Source: Acidobacteriota bacterium
Lineage (GTDB): Bacteria > Acidobacteriota > Thermoanaerobaculia > Gp7-AA8
Direction of reading: 5' to 3'
Assembly: GCA_021325515.1 (NCBI GenBank)
Contig: JAJPHC010000037.1
Location: 1-64,000 of the forward strand
Length of the DNA stretch: 64,000 nt
Every line of letters starts with the position of its first letter. Within the stretch, counting starts at the first letter, position 1. This document shows, one piece after another, positions 5,463 through 44,309 of this stretch. The translations under genes and the position numbers were made by a program. The notes under the pieces were generated by a model that had not been told where the DNA came from, ran no database searches, and worked only from the letters and a program-made list of their open reading frames with translations.

Positions 5463-6313
5463 GAGTGGTCTGGGCGAACATCGAAGATGTCTGGCGCGAG
5501 GCGGCGGCGCGCTGGACACTCATCACGTACTTCATTTTATCGACTATTTTTATCGTCATATTTGCGTCAGCCGTTAACCTCGACATTGTCGATGGCGCTC
5601 TGGCCGGAGCGCGGCTCTTCGGCAAGGACGTCGAGATGCGCGGCGGCGGGATCGGGATCGAGCAGCTGGTGATGTACTCCGAGCTCGTGTTCTCGATCAT
5701 CATCTACGGCTTCAGCGTGCTCCTGGCGGTGTTCGCGACGGCGCACCTCGTGCCACGCATGCAGGAGAAGGGAACGGTCGATCTCTATCTGTCGCGTCCC
5801 GTTTCGCGCCCGGCGCTTCTGCTCTCGCGCTACGTGGCCGGGCTGCTGCTGGCGGCGTCGAACGTCGTCTATCTGACGGGCGCGATCTGGTTCATCGTCG
5901 CCTGGAAAACGCACATCTTCAATCCGCGGTTCCTTCTGTCGGGCGTGATCATGATGTTCGTGATCGCGGCGCTGCTGGCGTTCGCGTTTCTGGTCGGCAC
6001 GATCACGTCGTCGACCGCGGTGTCGATCATGAGCAGCTACGCACTCTGCCTGATGTCGATCTTCCTCTCCATCGTGCACGGAAGGATCGACGCGGTCTTC
6101 TCGCACGACTGGCTGGCCGCGGTGGTCGACGGGCTGTACTGGATCGTTCCCAAGGCCTGGGAGCTGGGGGGAAGCGTCGCCGCGTACGTCACCGGTCCGA
6201 TTTCGCACATGAAGATTCCGGCGCCGGGGCTGAGCGCATTCGTAAGCACGGGCATGTTCGGCATCACCTGTCTGGTCCTCGCGGTCTGGCGCTTCCAGAA
6301 AAAGGAGTTTTAA
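5459..6313 (+). CDS. ABC-2 family transporter permease
   Basis: This 284-residue integral membrane protein has about six hydrophobic segments: one near residues 20-42 (ITYFILSTIFIVIF), a pair around 75-100 and 120-145, two more around 155-190, and a C-terminal helix (FGITCLVLAVWRF). This is the layout of NosY/ABC-2 permeases. A long loop after the first helix is probably extracytoplasmic. It overlaps the ATPase gene by four bases and forms its transport channel. A ribosome binding site for the next gene (AAGGAG) sits in its last codons, so the three genes are probably one operon. Confidence 0.88.
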   Translation: MRVVWANIEDVWREAAARWTLITYFILSTIFIVIFASAVNLDIVDGALAGARLFGKDVEMRGGGIGIEQLVMYSELVFSIIIYGFSVLLAVFATAHLVPRMQEKGTVDLYLSRPVSRPALLLSRYVAGLLLAASNVVYLTGAIWFIVAWKTHIFNPRFLLSGVIMMFVIAALLAFAFLVGTITSSTAVSIMSSYALCLMSIFLSIVHGRIDAVFSHDWLAAVVDGLYWIVPKAWELGGSVAAYVTGPISHMKIPAPGLSAFVSTGMFGITCLVLAVWRFQKKEF

Positions 6314-36949: not shown

Positions 36950-37604
36950 TTTTTCACAACTCGGCGCATTGATCGCCGATCCAGCGCGTGCGCGCATGTT
37001 GAGTGCGCTCCTGCAGGGAGAGGCGCTCACCGCGACCGAGCTCGCGCTCGAAGCGGGCGTGTCGCCGTCGACGGCGAGCTCGCATCTGACGAGACTTGTG
37101 AGCGGCGGCGTGATCGCGGTGGAGAGACAAGGCCGGCATCGCTACTTCCGTCTCTTCGATCACGAGATCGCTACGCTGCTCGAGCAGTTGCACGTCATCG
37201 CCTCGCGCGGCTCGAGCATGCGCCGCGGCCCTTCGGATCCGGCGCTTCGCATCGCCCGCGTGTGCTACGACCACCTTGCGGGCGAGCGCGGTGTGTGGCT
37301 GCTCGACCGGCTGCGCGCGGCGAAGTTTCTCACCGGCCGCGATGGCTGCGCGTTGTCCGCGGAAGGAGAAGCGTTCTTCATTCGCATGGGAATCGACGTT
37401 GAAGAATTGTCGAATGCGCGACGAACGTTCGCGCGCACATGTCTCGACTGGAGCGAGCGGCGGCATCATCTCGGAGGTGCGCTCGGCGCTGCGATTCTCG
37501 ATCGCATCTTCGCGCTGCGCTGGGCGCGGCGCGATCGCATGAGCCGCGCGATTTCGTTTTCGCCGCACGGCGAACGTGCACTGCGACAACTCTTCACGCG
37601 TTGA
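36933..37604 (+). CDS. ArsR-family winged-helix regulator
   Basis: This is a 223-residue regulator. The N-terminal ~90 residues form an ArsR winged helix: ARARMLSALLQGEALTATELA, recognition helix SPSTASSHLTRLVSGGVI, and wing VERQGRHRYFRL. The remaining ~130 residues are a helical C-terminal domain often found in larger ArsR proteins. It lacks the CxC metal site of ArsR/SmtB, so a metal sensor is not indicated. It overlaps the ACT gene, which may provide the ligand signal (inference). An inverted repeat lies across its stop codon and the next promoter. Confidence 0.9.
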   Translation: MRQHSDFSQLGALIADPARARMLSALLQGEALTATELALEAGVSPSTASSHLTRLVSGGVIAVERQGRHRYFRLFDHEIATLLEQLHVIASRGSSMRRGPSDPALRIARVCYDHLAGERGVWLLDRLRAAKFLTGRDGCALSAEGEAFFIRMGIDVEELSNARRTFARTCLDWSERRHHLGGALGAAILDRIFALRWARRDRMSRAISFSPHGERALRQLFTR

Positions 37605-37656
37605 CAGCATCGTGCGTCGTGGCACAATGCAGACATCAACAAGTCGCGTGAGTTGT
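37586..37656 (+). promoter_or_regulatory. Promoter of the radical SAM/peptide locus, bracketed by inverted repeats
   Basis: TTGACA (37601-37606), 16 bases, then CACAAT (37623-37628) give a good promoter ahead of the radical SAM gene at 37667. It is flanked by ACAACTCTTCACGCG (37586-37600) and CGCGTGAGTTGT (37645-37656), which are reverse complements apart from a three-base insert. This could be an operator for the ArsR-family protein encoded just upstream, or a leader hairpin. Confidence 0.6.
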
Positions 37657-37666
37657 TTGGAGGCGA

Positions 37667-39739
37667 GTGCGGGTGAGGAGCGTTGGACTGGTCTCGATGC
37701 CATTCGGTCCGCTCTTCTCTCCATCGATCGGTCTCTCTCTTCTGAAATCCGCGCTTCTCACGGCAGGCATCGAAAGCGAAATCCACTACTTCACCATCCG
37801 CTTCGCGGAGCTCGTCGGTTCGCACTTCTATAACGGCATCGCCGGCGGGATCCGGCCATCGTCGACGAAGCTCGCCGGCGAGTGGATCTTCAGCCGGGCT
37901 CTTTTCGGTTCCTCTTCAGCGCGTGATGACGACGATTACGTCGAGCATGTGCTGCGGCGGAAGCCGCCGGTCACCGCGGTAGCCCTGCGCGCCACGAGCC
38001 GTTCCGCAATTGGAAAGATCATGCGTGCCCGCGACCTCGCGGACGATTTTCTCGCGATGTGCGCGGAGGAAGTGCTCGCCCGTGATCCGAAGATCGTCGC
38101 GTTCACGAGCGTGTTTCAGCAGCAGGTGGCCTCGCTCGCACTGGCGAAGCGGATCAAAGCCTTGCGCCCTGACGTCTTCATTCTCCTTGGCGGCGCCAAT
38201 GTCGAAGGAGTGATGGGCGCCGAGACGGTTCGGCAATTTTCATTCGTGGATGGGGCGGTGTCCGGCGAAGGCGATCTGATCATCACTCCACTCGTCCGCC
38301 GGATTCTCGAAGGAGAGCCGATCGACGGAATGCCCGGGGTGCGTACCCGCGCCTGCATCGATGAGGAGTTCGCGAAAGGCACGTTCTCGAATGCACCGAC
38401 CGTGTACTCGATGGACGATCTTCCGTATCCGGACTACGACGACTACTTCGCGCAATTCCGCCGGAGCGCGTTTCAGCGCAGTTGGGAGCCGCGCATTTTC
38501 TTCGAGACCTCGCGGGGATGCTGGTGGGGCGAGAAGATGCACTGCACGTTCTGCGGACTGAACGGAACGACGATGCAGTTCCGCAGCAAGTCTGCGTCGC
38601 GTGCGCTCGACGAGCTGACGACGCTGACCGATCGCCATCCCGGATGCGATGTCGAGATGACCGACAACATCCTCGACCTCGCCTACTTCAAGGACTTCAT
38701 CCCCGAGCTGGCGCGGCGCAACGCGGAGCTCGGAATCTTCTACGAAACAAAGTCGAATCTCCGCAAGGAACAGATCCGGATGATGCGTGATGCCGGCATC
38801 CTCAGTGTGCAGCCGGGCATCGAGAGTCTGCACGACTCCGTTCTGAAGCTGATGCGGAAGGGCGTCTCCGCGTTGCAGAACATCCAGCTCCTCAAGTGGT
38901 GCAAGGAGCTTGGCGTCACGCCGCTGTGGAACATTCTCGTCGGGTTCCCCGATGAATCGCCTGCGGCATACGAACAGATGACGAGACTCGTTCCGCTCCT
39001 GACGCATCTGCGGCCGCCGGGCAACATGGCGCTCATTCGTCTCGATCGCTTCAGCCCGAACTTCGCCGACGGAAAGAACCTTGGCATCGCGAGGGTCGAG
39101 CCCTGCGAAGGGTATCGCCACGTCTATCGCGGAGTCCCTCGCGAGGCGCTGGACAATCTCGCGTATCACTTCGAGTTCGAGTACACGCGTCCGCAGGACA
39201 TCGCGGCGTATGCCCGGCCGCTGGCACTGGCGGTACACGAGTGGAGGCAGCAGGCGGAGCAGAGTGCACTGTTGTCGATCGACGCCGGCGATCATCTCCT
39301 CATCTGGGATCTGCGGCCGGTCGCCACACGTGCGCTGACTGTGCTGAGCGGCGCCGATCGTCTGCTCTACAAAGCGTGTGATGCCATCGCCGACACGCGG
39401 CAGCTCGTGGCCACGCTGACATCGCTCGGCGCACCGCGCACCGCATCCGAAATCGAAGCGATGCTGGAGCCTCTCGTTACGGAGGGGCTGATTCTTCGCG
39501 ACGGAGGCCGCTATCTCGCGCTGGCGGTGCCCGTCGGCGAGTACGTGCCGGAACAGACGATCGTGCAGCGCTTCGCGGGCGTGTTGCGCGAGATGGGCGT
39601 TCCGACCGCGAAAGGCGTCGCCGTGTCGTTGAACGGCAAGCGCCGGCGCGCGACCGCTCATCGCTTCCCGCGATTCAAACAGCTTTCGAGTTCGACTCCC
39701 CAATTCAAAGTCGAAGGTTCGTATCTGCTCATCCGCTGA
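37667..39739 (+). CDS. B12-binding radical SAM RiPP-maturase-like protein
   Basis: This is a 690-residue enzyme. The GTG at 37667 follows GGAGG by a few bases. Residues ~1-240 form a cobalamin-binding-type Rossmann domain (LLGGANVEGVMG, DGAVSGEGD). The radical SAM core follows with Cys285, Cys293 and Cys296 in CWWGEKMHCTFC (CX7CX2C spacing), then DNILDL and LWNILVGFPDE. The C-terminal ~250 residues are the variable domain seen in 'RiPP maturation radical SAM protein 1' (TIGR03975-like) enzymes. It should make a radical-driven change, such as methylation or crosslinking, in a ribosomal peptide. A 50-residue Lys-rich ORF starts 21 bases after its stop. A truncated paralogue lies at 42545-43268. 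Confidence 0.9.
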   Translation: MRVRSVGLVSMPFGPLFSPSIGLSLLKSALLTAGIESEIHYFTIRFAELVGSHFYNGIAGGIRPSSTKLAGEWIFSRALFGSSSARDDDDYVEHVLRRKPPVTAVALRATSRSAIGKIMRARDLADDFLAMCAEEVLARDPKIVAFTSVFQQQVASLALAKRIKALRPDVFILLGGANVEGVMGAETVRQFSFVDGAVSGEGDLIITPLVRRILEGEPIDGMPGVRTRACIDEEFAKGTFSNAPTVYSMDDLPYPDYDDYFAQFRRSAFQRSWEPRIFFETSRGCWWGEKMHCTFCGLNGTTMQFRSKSASRALDELTTLTDRHPGCDVEMTDNILDLAYFKDFIPELARRNAELGIFYETKSNLRKEQIRMMRDAGILSVQPGIESLHDSVLKLMRKGVSALQNIQLLKWCKELGVTPLWNILVGFPDESPAAYEQMTRLVPLLTHLRPPGNMALIRLDRFSPNFADGKNLGIARVEPCEGYRHVYRGVPREALDNLAYHFEFEYTRPQDIAAYARPLALAVHEWRQQAEQSALLSIDAGDHLLIWDLRPVATRALTVLSGADRLLYKACDAIADTRQLVATLTSLGAPRTASEIEAMLEPLVTEGLILRDGGRYLALAVPVGEYVPEQTIVQRFAGVLREMGVPTAKGVAVSLNGKRRRATAHRFPRFKQLSSSTPQFKVEGSYLLIR

Positions 39740-39760
39740 CAAGAACGAAAGGAGAAGAAG

Positions 39761-39913
39761 ATGGCCACCAAGAAGAAAGCTGCAAAGAAAGCCCCGGCGA
39801 AGAAGGCTGCAAAGAAGGCTGCAAAGAAAGCCCCAGCCAAGAAGAAGGCGGCGAAGAAGAAGCCCGCCAAGAAGAAAGCCCCGAAGGCTGACATCTCGAA
39901 CGGTCAGGATTAG
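39761..39913 (+). CDS. Lys/Ala/Pro-rich 50-residue peptide, candidate RiPP precursor
   Basis: ATG at 39761 is preceded by AAAGGAG at good spacing, and TAG is at 39911-39913. Residues 1-42 are almost only Lys, Ala and Pro in an AAKKAPAKK-type repeat. The last eight (ADISNGQD) have a completely different composition. The gene lies 21 bases after the radical SAM gene and before a hairpin. I read it as a lysine-rich leader plus a short C-terminal core. The alternative is a histone H1-like DNA-binding protein, which the repeat alone would suggest. Position and the parallel second locus favour the precursor reading. Confidence 0.75.
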   Translation: MATKKKAAKKAPAKKAAKKAAKKAPAKKKAAKKKPAKKKAPKADISNGQD

Positions 39914-39925
39914 TTTTCGCTGCAC

Positions 39926-39960
39926 GCGGCCGGGCTCGTCATCGGGTCCGGCCGCATTTC
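39926..39960 (+). terminator. Hairpin after the Lys-rich peptide gene
   Basis: GCGGCCGG (39926-39933) pairs with CCGGCCGC (39948-39955) around a 14-base loop, followed by the weak U-run ATTTCC. It lies 12 bases after the stop codon and probably ends the radical SAM-peptide transcript. Confidence 0.6.
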
Positions 39961-40032
39961 CTGCGCCTTGCTTCGTGTATCCGCCGCAAACGATAATCGG
40001 TCGGTCAGTCCGAAACTCTCTCAGGGCGCATC

Positions 40033-42387
40033 GTGTCATCCATAGGAACGGGTACCCGTTTAGGGCATTACGAAGTCGTGGCCCCGCTCGGGGCCGGCGG
40101 TATGGGAGAGGTTTACCGCGCCAAGGATACGAAGCTCGGGCGCGAAGTCGCGATCAAGGTTCTTCCCCGCCATCTGCAGCAGGATGAGGACGCGCTGGCG
40201 CGCTTCGAACGAGAAGCGAAAGTCATCTCCGGCCTCAACCATCCTCACATCCTCACCATCCACGAAGTCGGCAAGATGCGTATTCGGGGCGACTGGCGCG
40301 CCACGCACTACATGGTGACGGAGCTCATCGAGGGCTGCACGCTGCGCGAGCTCATGTCCAAGGAAGCGGAGGGGCGCAAGCTCGTCGAGTACATGGCGCA
40401 GGTCGCCGATGCACTCCAGAAGGCGCACAGCGCGGGAGTGATCCACCGGGATCTGAAACCCGAGAACATCATGGTCTCAGCGGACGGATACGCGAAGGTG
40501 CTGGACTTTGGTCTCGCGAAAATCGTCGGCTCTCTCGTTGGAGCGGAAACGAGTGACGGCAAAGCGACGGAGAAGTTTCAGACACAGCGCGGCATCGTCA
40601 TCGGCACCCTCGGCTATATGTCGCCGGAGCAGGTACAGGGGCGCCGGCTCGATCATCGATCGGACATCTTCTCCTTCGGCTGCATTCTCTATGAGGTGCT
40701 GTCCGGCCGGCGTCCGTTCGAGGCCGATGGGGTCGTCGACACGCTGCACCACATTCTGCATTCGCCTGCGCCTTCGCTCTCCTCGCAAATCACGCAGGAC
40801 CTTCGGCGGATCGTCGAGAAATGCCTGTCGAAAGAGATCGAGGGTCGCTTCGACTCGATGCGCACCATCGCGGCGGCGATTCGCGAGGCCGTCCGCGAGT
40901 ACGACGGGACCGTGCGTCCTCCATCGAAGAAGACGAAGGCCGTCAGCAGCCGGAGCTCATCTCGCATCAAGTCGCTCGCGGTTCTGCCGTTCGTGAATGC
41001 CACCAGCGATCCGGAGATGGAGTACCTCAGCGATGGCATTACGGAGAGCGTGATTCACGCAATGTCGCGGATCGGCAAACGCCTCCGCGTCATGGCACGC
41101 ACCACGGTCTTTTCGTACAAGGGAAAGTCGCCGACACCGCAGCAGCTCGCCCAGGAGCTTGGCGTAACGTCCGTGGTCAGCGGACGCGTGCAACGCATGG
41201 GCGCCAATCTCCTGATCAACATCGAGCTGGTCAACACCCGCGATGGATCACAACTCTGGGGTGACCGGTTTCGCACGCAGTTCTCCGATATCTTCGAGGT
41301 GCAGGACGAAATCGCGAATCACATCGCGGAAGAGCTGAAGCTTCAGGTCTCGACGACCGAGAAGCGCCGGCTCATGAAACGCGCGACCAAGAAGAGCGAA
41401 GCGTACGAGCTGTATCTCAAAGGTCGCTACCACGCGAACAAGCGCACTACCGATGGCGTCCAACGTGGAATCGACGAATTCGAGAAAGCACTGGGCATCG
41501 ACCCCGACTATGCGTTGGCGCGCGCGGGGCTGGCCGATTGCTACGCCATTCTCAGCGCGCGTTTTCTCGGCGACCCTCTCACGGCTTGGGCCCGCGCGGA
41601 GACCGAAGCGCGAAAGGCGGTCGAGCTCGACCCCACGCTGGCCGAGCCGCGCGCGACACTCGGTCATGTGAATCTCTGCTACAAGTGGAACTGGACCGAA
41701 GCAGAGCGCGACTATCGGCGCGCGATTTCTCTCGACGCGAACTACGCGCCGGCGCATCACTGGTATTCGGTGTTCCTCAACTGCATGGATCGCCGTGACG
41801 AGGCATTCGTCCAGGCTCGCGCCGCGCTCGACCTCGATCCTCTTTCGCTTCTCTACAACTGCCATTACGCGGATCTGCTGTATTTCGACGGGCAATATCA
41901 GCAGGCACTCGAGCACATCGAGAAGGCTCTCGATGGCGAGCGCTACTTCCTCGGTTACCTGTTGAAGGGTCGCACCTATACCGAGATGGGACGTTTTGAC
42001 GAAGGTCTCGAAGCCATCGAGGAAGCGATCTCTCTGGAGGGCGCTTATCCGGAGCTCGTTGCAGCACGCGGTTACGTGCAGGCCAGCAGGGGCGACGTGA
42101 AGAACGCGCTGCGCAGTCTTGATGAGCTCAAGGATCTGGCCACACGGCAATTCGTCGCGCCGAGTTTCTTTGCCGAAGTCTGCCTGGCCCTCGGAAACAT
42201 CGAAGACGCTCTCCGCTACGCGGAAGAGTTCTTCGAGCTGCGTGCCGAGTGTGCCGACATTCTCGTCGGACCGCGATTCGCTCGCTTGCGGGAGGATGAT
42301 CGCTGGCTCGAGATGCTCGAGCGCGTCGGTTTCCCGAGCCGGGCAACCTCAAGCTCACCCGCCTTCGCGCCGACGGCGAATCTATAG
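40033..42387 (+). CDS. Ser/Thr protein kinase with TolB-like and TPR domains
   Basis: This 784-residue soluble protein starts at GTG 40033. The Hanks-type kinase domain (~12-290) is intact: GAGGMGEVY, Lys42, HRDLKPEN with Asp140, DFG (158-160) and GTLGYMSPEQ. Residues ~315-440 form a TolB N-terminal-like domain (SLAVLPFVNATSDPEMEYLSDGI...QLWGDRF), as in adenylate-cyclase-associated regulators. Residues ~450-770 form several TPR repeats (YALARAGLADCYAI, APAHHWYSVFLN). No transmembrane helix is seen, unlike PknB. It sits between two radical SAM-peptide loci and might regulate them (inference only). Confidence 0.93.
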   Translation: MSSIGTGTRLGHYEVVAPLGAGGMGEVYRAKDTKLGREVAIKVLPRHLQQDEDALARFEREAKVISGLNHPHILTIHEVGKMRIRGDWRATHYMVTELIEGCTLRELMSKEAEGRKLVEYMAQVADALQKAHSAGVIHRDLKPENIMVSADGYAKVLDFGLAKIVGSLVGAETSDGKATEKFQTQRGIVIGTLGYMSPEQVQGRRLDHRSDIFSFGCILYEVLSGRRPFEADGVVDTLHHILHSPAPSLSSQITQDLRRIVEKCLSKEIEGRFDSMRTIAAAIREAVREYDGTVRPPSKKTKAVSSRSSSRIKSLAVLPFVNATSDPEMEYLSDGITESVIHAMSRIGKRLRVMARTTVFSYKGKSPTPQQLAQELGVTSVVSGRVQRMGANLLINIELVNTRDGSQLWGDRFRTQFSDIFEVQDEIANHIAEELKLQVSTTEKRRLMKRATKKSEAYELYLKGRYHANKRTTDGVQRGIDEFEKALGIDPDYALARAGLADCYAILSARFLGDPLTAWARAETEARKAVELDPTLAEPRATLGHVNLCYKWNWTEAERDYRRAISLDANYAPAHHWYSVFLNCMDRRDEAFVQARAALDLDPLSLLYNCHYADLLYFDGQYQQALEHIEKALDGERYFLGYLLKGRTYTEMGRFDEGLEAIEEAISLEGAYPELVAARGYVQASRGDVKNALRSLDELKDLATRQFVAPSFFAEVCLALGNIEDALRYAEEFFELRAECADILVGPRFARLREDDRWLEMLERVGFPSRATSSSPAFAPTANL

Positions 42388-42393
42388 TTGCAT

Positions 42394-42431
42394 CAAAAAG
42401 GAACCGGCGGGCCCGGTCAGGGACCCGCCGG
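42394..42431 (-). terminator. Intrinsic terminator after the 16-residue peptide gene
   Basis: Read leftward, CCGGCGGGTCCC pairs with GGGCCCGCCGG and is followed by TTCCTTTTTG. The stem is 11 bp with one bulge and the U-tract is on the minus strand only. It ends the leftward transcript that carries the peptide gene, 24 bases after its stop. On the plus strand it has no U-tract. Confidence 0.85.
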
Positions 42432-42455
42432 TGTCCAGCAACGGCGCGCCCGCAA

Positions 42456-42506
42456 TTACGCGGTGGGGTTGCCGAAGATCGCGGTGATCTTCTTCTTCTT
42501 TTTCAT
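42456..42506 (-). CDS. 16-residue Lys-rich peptide, candidate RiPP precursor
   Basis: ATG at 42506 has GGAAAGGAG six bases upstream, one of the strongest ribosome binding sites in the window. The product is MKKKKKITAIFGNPTA, ending with TAA at 42456-42458. It follows the truncated radical SAM gene by 38 bases and is closed by an intrinsic terminator, so it is a transcribed unit with real initiation signals. The plan is the same as at 39761: lysine run, then a short core (ITAIFGNPTA). At this length the protein cannot be verified by homology. The alternative is a leader peptide controlling termination. Confidence 0.65.
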   Translation of the reverse strand: MKKKKKITAIFGNPTA

Positions 42507-42544
42507 CGAAGACTCCTTTCCATTTCGTTCTTACGGGGCCGGGG

Positions 42545-43268
42545 TTAGACGATCGTCATCAGCTCCAGGGATTCTGACCACTGCGACGGTGCGTCTTCGG
42601 CGATCGTTTTCAGTCTGGTCATCGCCGCATCCTGCGGACGGTACTCGCCGCCGCGAATCGCCAGCGCGAGATAGCGGTTTCCCTGCCGGATGAGAATTCC
42701 GTTCTCAACCATCGGCTGCAGCTGACGCTCGACGTCGACAGCCGATCGCGGTCCGCCCGCAGCCGCAGAGACTTCGACGAGCTGGCGAAGATCCGCCACG
42801 GAATCGCAGGCGCGATAAAGCGCGGAGTCGAGCTCCGACAATTGCGTGACCGCCTGCTTCGCAACCGGACGAAGGTCCCAGATCACAACCTGGCCGCCAT
42901 CTTCTGTGAAAAAGAGGGAGCTGTCGTGATGCATCCGCTGCCACGCCTTCACCTCATTGACGAGAGGACGCATGTACTCCAGCGGATCGCGCTCATCCTG
43001 ATAGCGGAACGTGAAGTAGTAGGCGAGGTTGTGCACCGCTTCATCGGAGATCGAGCGATAGACGTGGCGGTAGGCTTCCGTCGGACGAAGGTCTTTGAAT
43101 CCGAGTTTCTCCGCATCGAAGAAATTCGGACTGAAGCGATCCAGCCGCACCACGGAGCAAACCGTGGGCGGACGCAGATGCGTCAAAAGCGGAGCGATCT
43201 CCGCCATCTTCTGGTAGTCCTCCGCGGTCTCACCCGGGAATCCGCAGAGGATGTTCCAGCGCGCTTCC
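42545..43268 (-). pseudogene. Truncated radical SAM RiPP-maturase paralogue (C-terminal part)
   Basis: About 240 residues align clearly with the C-terminal third of the protein at 37667: WNILCGFPGE against WNILVGFPDE, LLTHLRPP, RLDRFSPNF, YRHVYR, VIWDLRPVA, and RYLALA near the end. The B12 domain, the CX7CX2C cluster site and most of the barrel are absent. Homology starts abruptly near 43264, exactly where HlyD homology in another frame stops, so a deletion has joined the two genes. The frame upstream of the junction is only a shadow of HlyD. It cannot be catalytically active alone. Confidence 0.85.
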
Positions 43269-44167
43269 GCGCGCGACCTCCTGCGCCACGGGAGCGATCG
43301 ACGCGACGCGGCCTTCGTGAGGCTGATTCGGATAGGCGTCGATGACGACAATCGCCCGATCGCCGGGCTGGATGGCGCCGTCGTCCACGTCGGGCAGCGT
43401 CGCCACGACTTCGATCGAGCTCATGTCCGGAATGCGGGCGATGGTCAAGCCGACCCACACGCGCTCGCCCACCTGCAGCTTTCGCGGTTCGAAGGGCGAG
43501 TCGTTCACGAGAACGAGTCCGCGCTCCGGCGCTGTGAGCACGAACGAGTCGATCGAATGCTGCGCCGACATCAGATCGCGCCGCAGAACGCCGGCCTGCA
43601 ATTCGAGATTGCGAATCTCCGCTTCGGATCCCCGCTGCGCCGCGCGCAGCGTCGTCTCGGCCTTCTCCGCTTCGTTCTTCGCCCGCTCGTACGCGAGCAT
43701 CCGATCACGGACTTCTTTCGCCGAGATCACTGTCGCCGGCACGAGCGTGTTGAGACGCGCCTTCTCCGCTTCGGCACGATACCGCTCGACCTCGAAGCGC
43801 TTCTCCTGGAGATCGGCCTCGCCGCGTGCCCGCATCTCCGCGAGCTCATGCTCCGCTGCCTGCAGTTCCGTTCGTTTCTGATCGAGCGTTCTGGTGACCG
43901 GCGAGTTGTCCAGCTCCGCGACGCGATCTCCGCGCTCGGCATGCGCTCCGTCTTCGATCAACCAGCGGATGCTGGTCTCCCACGATTCCATCGGAGGGAC
44001 CGTGATGACGGTCCCGCGGCTCGCCTGCAGCTCTCCGGTGAGAACGACGGTCTGCACGAGATCACCGCGGTGCGGCGACGGATCGCGGCGCGTCGAGCCA
44101 TCGCGCGAGCGCCGCAGCGCAGCGCGAGCAGCGTCGACGCAATCAGAAGCAGGGGCGCTCTGCGCAT
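43260..44167 (-). pseudogene. Decayed HlyD-family secretion protein
   Basis: Residues from LVQTVVLTGELQASRG through a long coiled-coil hairpin and GERVWVGLTIARIPDMSSIEVVATLPDVDDG are typical of HlyD/RND-type membrane fusion proteins. The usual N-terminal hydrophobic anchor (MRRAPLLLIASTLLAL, from 44167) is in another frame and needs a frameshift near 44080-44100 to join. The C-terminus breaks off after VAQEVARGSA at the deletion junction. Its presence next to a radical SAM-peptide pair suggests the intact locus once included an exporter. Confidence 0.8.
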
Positions 44168-44233: not shown

Positions 44234-44309
44234 TGGCTCCGGCAGTAGGACTCGAACCTACGACCCACGGATTAACAGTCCGTTGCTCTACCGACTGAGC
44301 TATGCCGGA
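44234..44309 (-). tRNA. tRNA-Asn (GTT)
   Basis: Read leftward, the cloverleaf is complete: acceptor stem TCCGGCA/TGCCGGA, D-arm AGCTCAGTCGGTAGAGCA, anticodon loop CTGTTAA with anticodon GTT, T-arm GGTTCGAGTCC, discriminator G and an encoded CCA, 76 bases in all. It lies beside the decayed HlyD/radical SAM remnants. tRNA genes are common integration sites, but I found no repeat of its 3' end in the window. Confidence 0.97.

Follow-up and report, generated by a model that had tools for sequence, protein, structure and literature searches.

The window, by which we mean the whole 64-kb stretch of DNA that was analysed, contains a locus in which one Ser/Thr protein kinase gene is flanked by two genes for short lysine-rich peptides, each lying behind a gene of the same radical SAM family, one intact and one broken. 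The features of the locus are as follows.

37667-39739, + strand: B12-dependent radical SAM enzyme, 690 aa, NCBIfam TIGR03975 (RiPP maturation radical SAM C-methyltransferase)
39266-39529, + strand: C-terminal winged-helix domain of this enzyme, RRE-like by prediction, residues about 534-621 (AF2 model of the domain alone, pLDDT 76)
39671-39736, + strand: clade-specific C-terminal tail of this enzyme, motif about L-x4-F-x6-GEL-x-V-R, ending LSSSTPQFKVEGSYLLIR
39761-39913, + strand: Lys-rich peptide 1, candidate precursor, 50 aa, MATKKKAAKKAPAKKAAKKAAKKAPAKKKAAKKKPAKKKAPKADISNGQD, C-terminal segment ADISNGQD, 21 bases behind the enzyme gene
39926-39955, + strand: G+C-rich hairpin behind peptide 1, folding energy -29 kcal/mol
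40033-42387, + strand: Ser/Thr protein kinase with TPR repeats, 784 aa (Pfam Pkinase 5.5e-49, TPR)
42403-42432, no strand assigned: G+C-rich hairpin where the kinase and peptide-2 genes converge, -24.9 kcal/mol, with a T-run on the minus strand
42456-42506, - strand: Lys-rich peptide 2, 16 aa, MKKKKKITAIFGNPTA, with its own RBS, 38 bases behind the truncated enzyme gene
42545-43351 (homology 42599-43294), - strand: truncated second TIGR03975 gene, identified by profile match, RRE-like region kept and catalytic half lost
43233-44057 (wider span 43233-44167), - strand: remnant of an HlyD-type membrane-fusion protein (Pfam HlyD_D23, HlyD_3)

The 690-residue enzyme is a member of TIGR03975, scoring 668.2 bits against an NCBIfam profile whose curated cut-off is 281.85; members of the lysine-peptide clade described below score 643-647 bits. 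It also matches Pfam Radical_SAM, and its cysteine motif, Cys285-X7-Cys293-X2-Cys296, was read directly in the codons at 38519-38554. A full-length AlphaFold (AF2) model, built from only five sequences, covering the enzyme without its C-terminal tail and of modest confidence (pLDDT 71), has TsrM, OxsB, TokK and CysS as its best Foldseek matches, and the predicted fold is that of a B12-dependent radical SAM methyltransferase. Profile and direct reading agree with the original prediction of a complete B12-type radical SAM gene with a CX7CX2C motif at 37667-39739. That prediction had also described a 50-residue lysine-rich peptide gene 21 bases behind the enzyme gene, followed by a hairpin, and a 16-residue peptide gene on the opposite strand, 38 bases behind a truncated enzyme gene and followed by a terminator; both genes and both G+C-rich hairpins are present, and peptide 1 has the RBS aaaggag. 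Because the 64-kb window has no third Lys-rich ORF with an RBS, and not one arose when the window was shuffled 20 times with its dinucleotides preserved, we do not regard the peptides as chance ORFs.

The second enzyme is a broken gene, in which an HlyD-type gene, joined out of frame, stands in place of the N-terminal half. As had been proposed, it is homologous to the intact enzyme (45% identity) and truncated: it covers only positions 394-606 of the 606 in TIGR03975, scores 164 bits, which is below the cut-off, and lacks the cysteine motif. Its nearest rows in the enzyme tree are members of the clade, but the placement is weak and the copy is too short to have a supported position. The HlyD remnant is frameshifted near its start, and its C-terminus is cut by the out-of-frame junction with the truncated enzyme at about 43265, which is either a deletion junction or an assembly error. 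We considered HlyD as a constant exporter and rejected it, as it is seen only as this remnant in the window. A tRNA-Asn gene (44234-44309, - strand) lies just beyond the decayed module and is a possible site of integration or recombination. Of the two modules originally proposed, what stands is the two peptide-enzyme pairs; rather than as separate modules, they are better taken as one locus round a kinase, in which one of the enzymes is broken. The kinase itself had not been noticed, and its gene fills the span between the two pairs.

Lysine-rich peptides behind one clade of enzymes

Relatives of the enzyme were drawn from the same class, from the phylum and from another class of the phylum, and the resulting tree holds 64 TIGR03975 enzymes, 16 in one clade and 48 others. 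Within the single clade, which has support 100/98 and spans two bacterial classes, we observed a Lys-rich ORF directly behind the enzyme in 15 of 16 cases; at the same position behind the other TIGR03975 genes there was none (0/48). The original prediction had proposed looking for short Lys-rich ORFs downstream of homologues and had named their absence as its refutation; with these counts it passes that check. Fisher's test gives p about 1e-13 for this difference when shared ancestry is ignored; as the clade members are related, the 15 cases do not count as independent of one another. Mapped onto the tree, the presence of a Lys-rich ORF requires 2 changes, against 13.7 with shuffled labels. 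Besides the window's enzyme, 14 further enzymes have such an ORF directly behind them, MAKKKKAGKKKAGKKKAAKKKKKAGKRKPKVGCIFPG, MPKKKTKKKKPTGVKS and MATRKKAAKKAAPKKKAAKKAVRKTAARKAAPKKKVVKKAVRKTAPKKKASKKKDAGMI being examples, and across approximately 521 kb of enzyme flanks ORFs of the alanine/lysine-repeat kind occur only directly behind enzymes of the clade. The one clade exception, L084, has no Lys-rich ORF behind the gene, and its contig begins inside the enzyme gene. A scan of the genome contigs gave only three relatives, all of them distant.

Some related loci depart from this order. In the sister pair L082 and L083 the Lys-rich peptide lies upstream of the enzyme instead (MGGRTGKRSSAGAKGKTKTIGKKSMKKVRGGFFDVFTEVSATGAKKPVKSTTKLGRE in L082). 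In a sister lineage, too, a Lys-rich peptide beginning MGGRTGKRSSAGAKGKTKTIGKKSMKKVRGGFFDVFTEV precedes the enzyme (L094, about 5804-5980; L095, about 5525-5700), possibly an intermediate or a parallel case. L087 (G501:C35) carries two tandem enzyme-peptide pairs facing one kinase, the first enzyme being frameshifted before the conserved tail. Downstream of the enzyme of another TIGR03975 group (L009, L010, L012, L032, L038) another small partner recurs, its start resembling MANYVKYLLTVDADTGVPVKIEQVGEAGEL, which is probably a second precursor or accessory family.

The related peptides are 16-59 residues long with 31-50% lysine and follow the enzyme gene after gaps of 0-38 nt; nearly all of their genes have an RBS and a downstream G+C hairpin. 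Comparing congeners, we observed in-frame indels and numerous synonymous changes in the lysine part, whereas the C-terminus is near-identical (DVGLV/DVGLI, PVGDIFN/PVGDIFN and VGCIFPG/VGCIFEG), from which we conclude that the Lys-rich ORFs are coding. The last 5-10 residues are kept within a genus, differ between families and are often built around [VTA]-G-[CD]-I-[FY]. Conserved Lys-rich starts with variable C-termini had been expected; the ends do vary between families, but within a genus it is the end that is fixed and the lysine part that drifts by indels. Seven peptides compared with known families gave no match above cut-off, including no Nif11 (TIGR03798) or NHLP-type leader, and their nearest family resemblance is to histone H1-like tails (NCBIfam E 0.03-0.07, 14.7 bits against a cut-off of 80). 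Peptide sequence, gene order and enzyme lineage cohere across at least 13 genomes.

Kinases, proteases and other neighbours

Wherever the contig lets the surroundings of a clade locus be read, in 13 loci (the window, L061-L065 and L087-L093), the enzyme-peptide pair has a kinase gene next to it. These genomes hold 12-66 such kinases each, from which 0.02-0.09 per genome would be expected within 1 kb. The arrangement differs: enzyme-peptide-kinase in the window, kinase-enzyme-peptide in L088-L093, and convergent in L061-L065, in L087 and for peptide 2 of the window. The kinases differ as well. Those of L061, L062, L063, L065 and L087 form one group, those of L089-L091 and L093 another, and those of the window and L088 stand apart; the sensor part is made of TPR repeats or a beta-propeller. 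That different kinases lie beside the pair again and again speaks for a functional link. Kinases are also found near sister TIGR03975 enzymes that have no Lys-rich ORF (L066, L067, L071, L072), and the link between kinase and enzyme is therefore probably older than the peptide. General phosphorylation of the core by the kinase was considered and rejected, because several C-terminal segments contain neither Ser nor Thr.

Directly upstream of the kinase, L063, L065, L089 and L091 encode a papain-like C1A protease (PF00112, above cut-off). Proteases of this type are rare in bacteria, and two of them, PoyH and ThoK, remove RiPP leaders (PMC10885120). The C1A protease is not a universal partner: of the 14 clade genomes searched, 7 have it and the window's genome does not, and beyond the four loci its copies are unlinked to the enzyme-peptide-kinase genes. 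No exporter is conserved among the clade loci. An oxidoreductase gene, probably of GMC type and with a start like MATRLKDTDVVIIGLGAAGGVAALPLAQAGLEVVGLEAG, lies downstream of and convergent with the peptide gene in L089, L091, L092 and L093, all four loci of their family, which may reflect shared synteny only.

Predicted leader-binding domain and enzyme tail

The C-terminal domain of the enzyme is modelled as a winged helix preceded by strands. The three structures that match it best are lasso RREs with leader peptides bound (Z 8.5 and 8.2 for TbiB1, 7.5 for lasso B1); the next is a generic winged helix at Z 7.2, little below the best RRE value of 8.5. A Pfam search of the domain gave no match, and Foldseek alone gave none with E <0.001. 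The model supports, without proving, the presence of a built-in leader-binding domain in the enzyme. We find no support for simple charge recognition of the lysine part, since neither the clade enzymes nor their RRE-like domains are more acidic than those of the sisters.

Behind this domain, 13 of the 16 clade enzymes end in the tail motif, one of them behind a frameshift; in other enzymes the motif is not C-terminal. One could imagine that the clade has shifted the leader from the precursor onto the enzyme, the tail occupying the RRE-like groove in cis and the precursor needing only a generic Lys-rich handle. We think this improbable; if true, such a natural fusion of enzyme and leader would explain how precursors can do without a conserved leader sequence and shrink to 16 residues.

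Tail-like motifs, of the form F-x6-G-x-[LV]-x-[VI]-x-N, also occur in small ORFs adjoining sister TIGR03975 genes: a 56-residue ORF behind a Niallia gene (L129:6920-7087), one in front of the G173 enzyme (L074:3353-3697, - strand) and, as a third and weak example, L133:5634-5867 (- strand). The Niallia and G173 matches come from visual inspection and a weak hit in the first round of a profile search (E 0.98) and are a lead only. The three ORFs could be leader-like or accessory segments.

Proposed function and comparison with known systems

We think it probable that the locus is a small peptide-modification cassette whose peptides, with their minimal Lys-rich leaders, form a new family of RiPP-like precursors. 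The TIGR03975 C-methyltransferase would modify a very short precursor encoded directly behind its gene; the low-complexity lysine-rich N-terminal part would serve as leader or handle, and the C-terminal core of about 5-10 residues usually offers a possible site of C-methylation in the form of a Val, Ile or Leu. The precursor would be held by the RRE-like winged-helix domain, to which the clade tail may contribute, and in some loci the C1A protease may cut off the leader, the role that PoyH has in the making of polytheonamide. The Ser/Thr kinase is probably a regulator or sensor and not an enzyme that modifies the core. The window would then encode two precursors and, as its second enzyme has no catalytic half, peptide 2 would either be modified by the intact enzyme or be in the course of being lost. 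Relatives of the enzyme sit beside Nif11, NHLP and CefA precursors, with a Nif11 leader next to the sisters L069 and L073. Since TIGR03975 enzymes elsewhere adjoin such accepted precursors, the candidate undescribed RiPP family of the original prediction is well grounded, by these relatives as by the pairing itself; it is its layout in two separate modules that is better given up.

The main rival explanation reverses the roles of the two peptide parts: the lysine-rich part would be an effector, a polycation that binds nucleic acid or membranes, its lysines being kept in the product while the enzyme recognises or caps a C-terminal tag. The conservation of the C-terminus and the drift of the lysine part between congeners are the reverse of the usual leader and core pattern and fit this explanation, as do a composition like that of histone H1-like tails and the lack of a conserved exporter and of a universal leader protease. 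However, from family to family the C-terminal segments differ greatly, like cores, a protease of the leader-removing type is linked in four loci, and two of the peptides have only 16 residues, with 5-8 lysines; we consider it rather unlikely. The same likeness to H1-like proteins, in alanine/lysine/proline repeats and a weak NCBIfam resemblance, would be explained if the ORFs encoded small nucleoid proteins that share a transcript with the enzyme by chance, the enzyme acting on something else. Against this stand the fixed position behind one enzyme clade in two classes (15/16 against 0/48) and the brevity of members like MKKKKKITAIFGNPTA and MPKKKTKKKKPTGVKS, which together make it very hard to believe.

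The kinase may instead be the centre of the locus, with enzyme and peptide forming a regulatory unit for it, for example a modified peptide that acts as a kinase ligand, and not producing a secreted natural product. A neighbouring kinase is no less constant than the peptide and is found beside sister enzymes that have no Lys-rich ORF as well, and no exporter is conserved; yet the adjacent kinases span several lineages with different sensor parts, so that no single peptide-binding partner is conserved, and we regard this arrangement as distinctly unlikely. If the cassette reading is correct, precursors of 16-59 residues, mostly lysine with a tail of 5-10 residues, would rank with the smallest substrates of B12-dependent radical SAM enzymes, and the clade would offer a system that is easy to synthesise and in which leader recognition and the methylation of unactivated carbons could be studied. 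The constant kinase neighbour is, in these bacteria, an unexplained link of peptide modification with protein kinase signalling.

The leaders known from TIGR03975 systems are mostly long ones of Nif11 or NHLP type, and genome mining for known leaders or long precursors would probably miss the Lys-rich peptides of this clade. With those systems (rSAM_ocin_1) the locus shares the enzyme family and a precursor encoded beside the enzyme, but its peptides carry no Nif11, NHLP or double-Gly leader, have 16-59 residues with a Lys-rich N-terminus, and have a Ser/Thr kinase as constant neighbour. In proteusins such as polytheonamide (poy cluster), the peptide is C-methylated by B12-dependent radical SAM enzymes. 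The C1A proteases of four related loci recall the proteusin leader protease PoyH (PMC10885120), whereas the NHLP-type leader, the epimerase and the long core have no counterpart at the locus, and the window's genome has no C1A protease. TOMM kinase/cyclase-associated systems (TIGR03903) likewise encode a Ser/Thr kinase domain beside a peptide-modifying enzyme, but the window's kinase has no cyclase domain and scores 140 bits against a cut-off of 706. The enzyme's C-terminal domain resembles lasso peptide B1/RRE proteins in predicted fold (TbiB1, Z 8.5 over 78 residues, 2.2 A); it differs in being fused to a B12-dependent radical SAM enzyme, at 13% identity, with no lasso cyclase and with leader binding that is predicted only. 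The lysine-rich part is similar in composition to histone H1-like Lys/Ala-rich proteins (Hc1/Hc2, NF038053), yet the peptides score 12-15 bits against cut-offs of 80-135 and differ in length, position and C-terminus. In the open-access literature that was searched, we found no description of TIGR03975 enzymes with Lys-rich precursors. Given that the peptides fail both the Nif11-type and the H1-like tests while the enzyme belongs to TIGR03975, we take the locus to represent a new precursor type and a new gene context for a known maturase family.
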